A DNA stretch of 64,000 nt, taken from the NCBI RefSeq assembly GCF_023130475.1, contig NZ_JAKHEX010000011.1, positions 10,001-74,000 on the forward strand, read 5' to 3'. The position numbers and the translations under genes were made by a program. Below the pieces are notes generated by a model, which was not told the DNA's origin, did no database searches, and saw only the letters and a list, made by a program, of their open reading frames with translations. Source of the DNA: Aciditerrimonas ferrireducens (GTDB lineage: Bacteria; Actinomycetota; Acidimicrobiia; Acidimicrobiales; UBA8190). Shown in pieces: positions 17,802 to 32,048 of this stretch (position 1 is the first letter of the stretch; the number at the start of each line of letters is the position of its first letter).

Positions 17802-18663
17802 GCGGCTCGAAGGGGAACCCGTCCGTGGCCAGCTCCACCCCGTCGAAGCCCACCAGGTAGGCCTCGTAGCCCGGCAGCTGACCGACGGAGGCCAGGGCCG
17901 CCTCGCCCCCCACCACCAGGCCCGTGGCCAGGGCGTCGGCCAGGGCCAGGCTGGGGCCCACCACCGTCGCCTGGGCCACCTTCCCTCGGGTCCGCTCGCC
18001 GGTGCCGGGATCGACGAAGTGCGCGCCCCGGGCGCTGCTCCCCGAGGTGGCGATGGCCCGACGGACCCGCACCACGCACGCCAGGGCACCTGGCCGGAAC
18101 GGATGGGCCACCCCGAAGCGCACCCCCGGCCGCCCCCCCGGCCCCCAGCCCGGGCCGAGGGCGGCCCAGGCCTCGTTCGCTCCGCCGGGCGGCCCCAGCA
18201 CCACCGCGTCCCCACCGGCGTTCACCACCGCGGCCCGGACCCCGGCGGCCACCAGTGGGCCCAGGGCCCGCTCGACCGCCCAGCCTTTCACCAGCCCTGT
18301 CGGGTCCACCCCGCCGGGCAGCGCCCAGGGATCGAACCAGCCCCCGCTCAGCTGCCGGGCCGCCAGGCACAGCTCGAGGACCGCGGCGAGCTCGCCCGCG
18401 ACCTCGTCCGGCAGCTCGTCCAGGTCGCTGGCCCCCCGCCGGAACCGGCTCAAGGGGCTCTGCGGCCGCCACGTCGAGAACCGCTCGTCGACCTCCCGCA
18501 GCAGCTCGCCCGCCGCCACCACCGCACGGGCCGCCTCGGCCTCTCCTCCCGGCCCCGGGCGGAGCGCGAACGAGACCACCGTGCCCATCACCGCCACCGT
18601 CTCCCGCCACCAGCCGTCACGGGCGCCTGGCCGATCCGGGCTCGGCGCGCCAGCCGCGGTCAC
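17779..18663 (-). CDS. apbE: FAD:protein FMN transferase ApbE
   Basis: Transfers FMN from FAD covalently to a Thr/Ser of a target protein. The 294 residues show MGTVVSFAL (from residue 26), the DPTGLVKGWA motif, the FAD/metal-binding NAGGD, ATSGSSARGAHFVDPGTG and DALATGLVV. No signal peptide is visible, unlike many exported ApbE proteins, so it may act before secretion or be exported by another route. GTG start overlapping the upstream FMN-binding gene as GTGA, so it is the third gene of a flavinylation operon and the adjacent protein is its obvious substrate. Confidence 0.93.
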   Translation of the reverse strand: MTAAGAPSPDRPGARDGWWRETVAVMGTVVSFALRPGPGGEAEAARAVVAAGELLREVDERFSTWRPQSPLSRFRRGASDLDELPDEVAGELAAVLELCLAARQLSGGWFDPWALPGGVDPTGLVKGWAVERALGPLVAAGVRAAVVNAGGDAVVLGPPGGANEAWAALGPGWGPGGRPGVRFGVAHPFRPGALACVVRVRRAIATSGSSARGAHFVDPGTGERTRGKVAQATVVGPSLALADALATGLVVGGEAALASVGQLPGYEAYLVGFDGVELATDGFPFEPLSSARVG

Positions 18664-19196
18664 CTTGCGCTCCGATCGATGGCGCTCTGGACCGAGGCGG
18701 CGTACGCCTGGCTCGTGAAGGTAGCCCCCGACACCCCGGCGATCTGGGCACTCTGGGCGTCGAGGACCTCCTGGCGCAGCTGCGGCACCGCCGCGTCGGC
18801 GATCTGCTGGGAGAGCGACTCGGCGACCTGCAGGCTCGCCACCGACACGTTCGTGATCCGCCGACCGCTGAACGTCACGTCGACCGAGAGCGCCCCGTAG
18901 CCGTAGTCCTCCACCGCACCCTGCACCGTCACCGTGCCGCTGGCGCCGCTGCCGCTCGAGCCGGTGCTCCCCGACCCGGCGGAGCTCGCGCTGCCCGAGC
19001 TGCCGCCCCCAGAAGCCGACGAACCGGCTCCGTTCCCGCTCGAGCCCTGGCTCGCGGATTGTCCGGCACCCGACCCGCTCGTCGCACCCGTGCCCGGCCG
19101 GGCCTGCTGCACCGAGCCCTGGGGAGTCCGGTAGGTGAGCACGCCGATCACCCCGGCGACCGTGCCCACCAGCACGAGGGGGCCACGCCAGCTCAT
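18660..19196 (-). CDS. membrane-anchored FMN-binding domain protein
   Basis: A 178-residue protein with one N-terminal hydrophobic helix (residues 5-22), a long Ser/Gly linker (about 30-88), and a C-terminal FMN-binding domain as in NqrC/RnfG. The attachment motif SGATFTS (156-162) makes Thr161 the probable site of covalent FMN. The linker and anchor place the domain outside the membrane. ATG start overlaps the oxidoreductase stop as ATGA and its own stop overlaps apbE. It should shuttle electrons between the membrane oxidoreductase and an external acceptor; the acceptor is unknown. Confidence 0.9.
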   Translation of the reverse strand: MSWRGPLVLVGTVAGVIGVLTYRTPQGSVQQARPGTGATSGSGAGQSASQGSSGNGAGSSASGGGSSGSASSAGSGSTGSSGSGASGTVTVQGAVEDYGYGALSVDVTFSGRRITNVSVASLQVAESLSQQIADAAVPQLRQEVLDAQSAQIAGVSGATFTSQAYAASVQSAIDRSAR

Positions 19197-23582: not shown

Positions 23583-24384
23583 TGGACGATCTTGCCGAGG
23601 GGCAGCTCGAGGATGTCGGTGGCCCCCCGGTCCTTCAGCGCCGGGATGAGGACGTTGACGTCCTCCTTGGCCACCACGGTCTCCACCGCGTAGCCGCCCC
23701 CGCCGACGAGCTCCGAGACGGTCGGGGCCTTCATGGCGGGCAGCAGGGCCACCACCTCGGCCAGCTGCTCGGCCGCCACGTTCAGCTTGAGGAGCACCTT
23801 GCCCCGGGCCTCCAGGGCCCCCTGGAGGAGGGTCAGGAGCTGCTCCATGGCGTGGCGCCGCTCGGGGTCGGTAGCAGCGTCGGGGTTGGCTACCAGCTCG
23901 GTATGCGAGACGAGGAGGGTGTCCACGATCCGGAGGCCGGCGGCCCGCAGGGCCCGTCCGGTCTCGGTGATCTCGACGACGGCGTCGGCGATGTCGGGCA
24001 CCTTCGCCTCGGTGGCCCCGTAGGAGAGCCGCACCTCGGCCTTCACCCCGTGGGCCTCCAGGAACCGCCGGGTCAGCTCGGGGTACTCGGTGGCCACCTT
24101 GACCCCCTCGGGCAGGTCCTCGACCCGGGTGACCGGCGAGGACTCGGCCACGGCCAGCACGACCCGGATGGGGTTGGCGGTCCGCTCCCGAGGTCGAAGA
24201 GCCCGTCAGCCACGTACCGGGGGATCTCCTGGGGGCGCAGGATCCGGACCTCGGCGACCCGGGGGTCCTCGATGCGGGCCCGGTAGTCGACCTCCGAGCT
24301 GCGGACCACGGCGAGGTCGGCGGCCTCGAAGAGGTCCAGGGTGGCCTTCTCCAGGGAGCCCTTGGGCAGGACCAGCCGCAGCAC
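23579..24384 (-). pseudogene. hisG: ATP phosphoribosyltransferase hisG, broken by deletion and frameshift
   Basis: First enzyme of histidine synthesis, long form with a C-terminal ACT-like regulatory domain. The 5' part (GTG at 24384) reads LRLVLPKGSLEKATLDLFE..RYVADGLFDLG and then leaves frame near 24181-24189. The 3' part resumes in another frame at TANPIRVVLAVAESSPV and continues normally to NVLIPALKDRGATDILELPLGKIVH. The stretch normally joining them (an ITGRDW-type motif plus about 20 residues) is missing, so this is a deletion of roughly 80 bp and not one indel. Total length is 806 nt, not a multiple of three. Either a true pseudogene or an assembly error. It starts 3 bp after the ribH stop. 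Confidence 0.85.
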
Positions 24385-24386
24385 CC

Positions 24387-24950
24387 TCAGTCCCCCGCCG
24401 TCGTTGCCACGCGGCGCAGCAGGGCCACGGTGTCGAGGGCCCCGGCGCAGGCCTCGTACCCCTTGTTCGTGGGCCCCGGGCCGCTGCGGGCCAGGGCTTG
24501 GTCGAGGTCCTCGGTGGTCAGCACCCCGAAGGCCACCGGCAGCCGGTACTGCAGCTGGACCTGCTGGAGCCCCGCGGCGCACTGGCCGGCCACGAACTCG
24601 AAGTGGGCCGTCTCGCCTCGGACCACCGCCCCCAGGGCCACCACGGCGTCGACCGTACCCGAGGCGGCGAGGGCCGCGGCGGCCAGGGGCAGCTCGAAGG
24701 CGCCCGGCACCCAGCAGAGGCTGGTCCCGGCCACCGCCGCGCCGGCGTCGGCCAGCGCGGCGAGGGCGCCCTCGAGGAGGCGGAGGGTCACCCCGCCGTT
24801 GAACCGCCCGCAGGCCAGGCCCACCCGGACCGGCGCCTCGGCGAGGACGGCGTCCCGCTCGCTGCGCTCCAGGACCCCGAGGACGGCGCCGACCCGCTCT
24901 CCGAGGCGGCGGGCCTCGGGCAGCGAGAGCTCGACCTGCTCAGAGGACAT
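24387..24950 (-). CDS. ribH: 6,7-dimethyl-8-ribityllumazine synthase RibH
   Basis: Condenses the RibB product 3,4-dihydroxy-2-butanone 4-phosphate with the ribitylamino-pyrimidine to lumazine. The 187 residues include [21 protein letters not shown], the substrate loop [34 protein letters not shown] and the C-terminal [17 protein letters not shown]. An N-terminal extension of about 35 residues ([20 protein letters not shown]..) makes it longer than the usual 155. Its start lies within the 3' end of ribBA (11-nt overlap), so the two are coupled. Confidence 0.95.
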
Positions 24951-30240: not shown

Positions 30241-32048
30241 TCAGTCGTCGTCGGGGTCCACGGCCACCACCAGGCCAGCGGGACGCCGCAGGGCCGCCAG
30301 CCGGTCGAGGAGGGCTTCTCGGTCCGAGGACCGCACCTCGACCCTCCCAGCGCCGAGGGGTCGGCCAGCGACCCGGCCGCCTCGTCGCTGGTCGGCCCGT
30401 GGAGGACCACTCGGCAGGTGAAGGGCGGCAGGCCGACCTCCCGGCGACCCGCCGTGTCCGCCTCGGTCACCGGCGTCGGGTCGGCCAACAGGGCAGCCCG
30501 GACCGCGGGGTGCTCGGGTTGGCGGGTCTGGAGCACGAGCCGGCCCGGGGCCCGGCCGGCAGCTCCGAGCGCCCTGGACCGCCCGACCAGGCGGGCCGCC
30601 CGGGCGAGCAGGGCCAACGCCCCCGCGCTGGCACCGACCCGGGGGGCCAGCAGCTGCGGGTCCAGGTCGGCGAAGGCCACCAGGTCCGCTGGCTCGCCCC
30701 GCAGGGCGGCCTCCGTGCCGACCACCACGGCCGCCCCCGCCGGCCCGGCGGTCCCCTCGGCGGTCCGGAGCGCCACCGGCACCCCGGCGGCCTGGGCCAG
30801 GGCCCGGGCGAAACGGGCCGCCCCGGGCTGCTCCTGGCGGAGCCGGGTCGCCCCGCAGGCCGCGCAGACCAGGGGCCGCTCCGCCCCGCAGGTCGGGCAC
30901 GAGAGGACCGCGGGCGCGCCGGGGCCCGGCCCCTGAAGCGGCGTGGCGCAGCCCTCGCAGCGTTGCAGCGCCCGACAGCGGGCGCAGCGGACCCGGCGGG
31001 CTTCCCCCAGGCGGTTCAGGACCACGACCACCCGCCGGCCCGGCTCCGCGTGGGCCCAGCGGCACCAGCGCACCAGCGTGCCGCTCACCAAGCCCTCCCG
31101 GGGGTCGGCCCGGGCCAGGTCCACCACCTCCACGGCTGGCCAGCCGGCCCGCTCCACCGCCCGAGGCGGGACGCTGAGGGGCCCGAGGTCGAGCAGGCCG
31201 GCCGTCGGGCACGGCGAGGTCGCCAGCCACGGCACCGCCGCCTCCTTCGCCTGCTGCGCCAGGACCTCCGGCGCCCACCAGGTGGGCGCGGCCTGCTCCC
31301 GCAGGGCCCGGTCGTGACCGTCCAGGACCACCGCGCCGGCGAGGGCCGGCAGCGGGGCGAACGCCGCGGCCCGGCTCCCGACCACCACCCGGCCACCGGC
31401 CCGGGCCGCCGCCCAGTCCTCGGGCAACAGGGCCACCGGCCAGCCCCCTGACCGCAGCCCCTCGGCGACCTGCTGGGCGTCGGCGCGCTCGGGCACCACC
31501 ACCACGACCCCAGCGCCGTCCTTGGGCCCGCCGCCCTGGGCCGGCCGGCTCGCCAGCACCCCGAGGGCGGCGTCCGCCAGGGCGGTCAGCGGGACGGCCG
31601 GGCCGATCCGCACCACCCCGCCGCCGTGCTCCAGCGCCCTTCGCACGACCGCCGGCCAGCCCGCCGCCGTGGCCCTCGTCGCCGGACGGCTCGGGGGGAA
31701 CGGCCCGGGAGCCGGCAGGGACCTGACCACCCGGGGACTCGAGGCGCTGCCCAGCAAGGGCGCGGGGCTGGCCGCCCCGTACCGCCAGGCCGCCCATCCG
31801 CACGCCGCCACCACCCGGGGCGGCGGCCCGACCCCCCGACAGGCCAGCAGGGGCTTCAGGTCGCCGTCGACCGCCGAGCTCGTGTCGAGGCCCACCACCC
31901 AGCCCCGCAGGCGCCGCGGCCCGAGGGCCACCCGCACCTCGCTGCCCACCGTCACCTGGTCGGCCAGCTCGGCGGGCACCCGGTAGTCCAAGGGCCGGAC
32001 CCCCGAGCGGACCTCCACGACCACCCGGGCGAACAGGTCCTCGCTCAG
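30241..32048 (-). CDS. priA: PriA-like primosomal protein N', frameshifted near the 3' end
   Basis: Restart-primosome protein; actinobacterial forms are degenerate. The 3'-binding N domain ([17 protein letters not shown]) and the zinc-binding cysteine cluster ([32 protein letters not shown]) are clear, but there is no Walker A GKT, so no helicase activity is expected. Near 30350 the frame changes. One frame runs through [16 protein letters not shown]; the family-like C-terminus ([32 protein letters not shown]) lies in another and ends at 30241. Restoring one base near 30351-30356 would give DPSGAGRVEV. Left alone, the frame reads on to 30075. Start: CTG at 32048 overlapping the metK stop, or GTG at 32024. 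Confidence 0.82.

Follow-up and report, generated by a model that had tools for sequence, protein, structure and literature searches.

The hisG gene of Aciditerrimonas ferrireducens is broken in the 64,000-nucleotide stretch of DNA analysed here (the window), but is most probably intact in the organism, a reading to which we assign a probability of about 86%: some 70 bp would have been lost from the assembled sequence by a false join across a gap. That the lesion is most likely an error of assembly follows from like damage elsewhere in this assembly, in genes that a cell cannot do without, and we infer that the bases went missing in sequencing or assembly, not in the living cell.

The gene lies on the minus strand and is read in two frames. 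The 5' part (24384-24187; 66 codons, VLRLVLPKGS...VADGLFDLG) remains in one frame up to the DLG motif, while the 3' part (24184-23579; 201 codons without a stop, RTANPIRVVLAV...LPLGKIVH) continues in another and includes the C-terminal regulatory domain. At the junction (24182-24189) the codons GAC CTC GGG (24195-24187) are followed by two bases (24186-24185) and then by CGG ACC GCC AAC CCC (from 24184). A break with a change of frame near 24181-24189, where the VADGLFDLG frame gives way to a second one, had been proposed in a preliminary description of this DNA, and is borne out. Alignment with relatives, put forward there as a check, shows what is missing: of 125 records examined (mostly from Acidimicrobiales/Acidimicrobiia), both parts of hisG could be placed on 120 loci, some of which are duplicates of one MAG. 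The anchor codons are separated by exactly 72 bases in every one of the 120, and by two in the window. (The five remaining records are the window itself, three further loci from its own genome, and L054, a locus at a contig end.) The net deletion is thus 70 bp plus a change of frame, and removes 24 residues including ITGRDW; the absence of the ITGRDW segment had been correctly anticipated, whereas the earlier estimate of about 80 bp was somewhat too large.

What remains is recognizably a long-form HisG (PF01634 plus PF08029; TIGR00070/TIGR03455), and both parts match the family. Against TIGR00070 the 5' part covers profile positions 1-63 (44.8 bits, under the whole-protein cut-off) and the 3' part positions 90-183. 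A Pfam scan of four pieces of the window returned families for the 3' part alone: the HisG catalytic domain (97.1 bits against a cut-off of 25.5) and the C-terminal regulatory domain PF08029 (79.4 bits against 23.5). The best match of the 3' part among solved structures is 2vd3. Compared with other long-form loci, the window lacks the 24 first-domain residues and the continuous frame through the DLG-ITGRDW segment, but shares the direct ribH-hisG neighbourhood: ribH (24387-24950) adjoins hisG on one side, with a short downstream ORF on the other, and such direct contact is found at 72 of the 120 loci (a larger gap at 10; ribH or the 5' part of hisG not located at 38).

If hisG were a true pseudogene, then raised substitution or further decay is expected. 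Divergence was expressed as the distance of the window's protein from 11 family loci, relative to distances among those loci. The ratios are 1.10 and 1.06 for the two parts of HisG, compared with 1.11 for ribBA and 1.38 for ribH: HisG is no more diverged than the first and less so than the second, and shows neither sign of decay. In being about as conserved as its neighbours it undercuts histidine auxotrophy, one of three explanations offered in the preliminary description.

Auxotrophy is undercut further by the same type of lesion in unrelated, indispensable genes of this genome assembly. In hisS (L171:13178-14358) an interval of 66 bp in each of the five relatives measured (seven were searched, two of them giving no paired match) is reduced to 8 bp, a net loss of 58 bp with a change of frame. 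A ClpB/ClpC-type ATPase gene (L155:6717-9168) has lost 38 bp and its frame relative to all six loci measured (one a paralogue; seven were given), while elsewhere its protein is about 90-96% identical to the five closest loci. The matches of secD (L171:18181-19652) and proA (L158:4118-5343) pass from profile positions 1-313 to 335-397 and from 3-95 to 108-416, respectively, in each case with a change of frame; for secD the lesion is read from the profile, measurement against relatives having given no paired match. Within the window, a priA-like gene (30244-31700, minus strand), named from alignment to relatives and by recognition, changes frame near 30342-30348, where it is about nine residues shorter than in four relatives; the stretch is variable and the exact loss correspondingly uncertain. 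The piece of this gene submitted to the Pfam scan was a frame and range without a family.

The only histidyl-tRNA synthetase-family gene found in the genome is hisS (one PF13393 match), and it is broken in the same manner as hisG. A cell with its sole histidyl-tRNA synthetase gene broken would not be expected to live; one carrying all of these lesions could not be viable. Auxotrophy from the hisG lesion is therefore not supported, and one damaged gene in a metagenome-type draft is no ground for calling it. Other apparent gene losses in this assembly should likewise be verified, and the broken genes may themselves depress its completeness estimate. In one relative (G008), hisS is divided between two overlapping matches (C119:43865-44823, L178), probably because the reading frame is interrupted there as well; the assembly studied here is thus not alone in having broken frames, which does not help the case for an artefact.

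Collapsed-gap or indel errors are a known class in draft metagenome assemblies, although our literature search on this class returned nothing relevant. In the present case two sequence ends would have been joined over a short unresolved gap, dropping about 70 bp at 24182-24189, and the same process would have left similar short losses across the metagenome-type draft (2,649,952 bases in 43 contigs; estimated completeness 85.4%, contamination 0.09%). Short losses in conserved genes on several contigs of a 43-contig draft resemble such errors. Three further observations speak against an artefact. The hisG junction is marked neither by an N run nor by low-complexity sequence, although N runs occur elsewhere in the sampled assembly (four, of 17, 26, 40 and 5000 bases, in which gaps and masking are not distinguishable), so that marking of gaps may have taken place in some cases. 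No simple cause of dropout is visible in the segments that were lost: in relatives they have neither unusual hairpin stability nor unusual GC content (100-base windows centred on these segments, 19 locus tests, three genes), and loss driven by a hairpin or GC feature common to the three genes was rejected. Finally, random gaps should leave some in-frame collapses, yet none that is convincing was seen among the 28 of the window's 49 called genes with homologues in relatives' contigs; the gaps seen resemble variable loops. Among these same 28 genes, priA alone has a frame break beside that of hisG.

In favour of an artefact, a scan of codon usage for frame switches raised 21 flags in 417,359 bp of the genome compared to 4 in 298,690 bp from four relatives. 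From their translations, several of the 21 are ordinary gene boundaries and two abut N runs. Five flagged genes (hisG, hisS, the ClpB/ClpC-type gene, secD and proA) were tested by profile or against relatives; in addition, flagged genes that by eye we labelled heterodisulfide-reductase-like, phosphatase-like and enoyl-CoA hydratase-like may, from the look of their translations, carry lesions. The other flags in the window were set aside as antisense shadow ORFs or boundaries between genes (which by recognition we take to be pheS/pheT and rpmI/infC), and that at 18660-19190 as a mis-call within a continuous ORF.

The principal alternative is that a real and very recent deletion of 70 bp has inactivated hisG, in which case histidine would be needed from outside, or the population would be mixed. 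The well-ordered neighbours of hisG on the contig (ribH, ribBA and ribD) are in keeping with this, as is the failure to find a second hisG: a profile search of the genome with PF01634 gave one match, and one with PF13393 returned hisS as its single match and thus no separate HisZ, a partner not expected with a long-form HisG that carries its regulatory domain. The second copy envisaged in the preliminary description was accordingly not found, and of its three explanations it is the assembly error that we favour. A real deletion is, moreover, difficult to reconcile with the retention of hisD, hisB, two full-length hisA/hisF-type genes and hisI (of the genes sought beside hisG, which also included hisE), with the lack of relaxed constraint in HisG, and with the same type of lesion in hisS and other key genes. 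Relatives also keep the gene: a HisG match was obtained in 54 of 60 genomes, and in all 38 of those whose completeness is 90% or more and whose contamination is 5% or less. We consider a real deletion unlikely. A variant in which all of the losses are real – a lineage with many deletions of 38-70 bp in otherwise conserved and even indispensable genes, which survives through intact copies carried on other chromosome copies or by neighbouring cells, and the assembler having taken the deleted form – appears very improbable.

Two further possibilities would leave the cell with a working enzyme. The first part of hisG and a polypeptide begun at the internal GTG at 24160 might assemble, or the ribosome might shift frame; the 3' part is indeed open over its whole length and has this start, but no change of frame can bring back 24 conserved residues for which the DNA has no codons, and we give the idea next to no credence. 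An intact second hisG might instead lie in the unassembled part of the genome, given the estimated completeness of 85.4%, and one of the 60 relatives (G018) does have two hisG matches. It is, however, alone in this among the 54 with a match, and a hidden copy would not explain why hisS, the Clp gene and secD are damaged as well: we regard this, too, as extremely improbable. False joins across gaps, in contrast, would account for hisG and for these genes alike.

A separate matter is hisE, which was not found in the A. ferrireducens genome or in the 16 other family members in a PF01503 search of 17 genomes. Because none of these 16 relatives yielded it either, its absence is not part of the hisG lesion. 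A single larger event removing both hisE and hisG was considered and rejected: at 82 loci both ribH and hisG could be placed, and at 72 of these they are close neighbours; the failure to find hisE in all 17 genomes of the family search likewise speaks against joint loss. Canonical hisE (TIGR03188) is missing from most of the order: among 118 genomes, 115 of which are within the limits of completeness and contamination given above (90% and 5%), only 13 have a match over the cut-off. MazG-like proteins are candidates for its replacement. The gene is reported missing in Ilumatobacter coccineum (PMC3910706); among the titles and opening lines of abstracts returned by a literature search, none gave hisE loss in the group as its topic. 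In G018, a single-contig genome, the second hisG (C1:3951809-3952640, region L131) stands directly beside a canonical hisE, an arrangement which suggests that the hisE-hisG pair was separately acquired.
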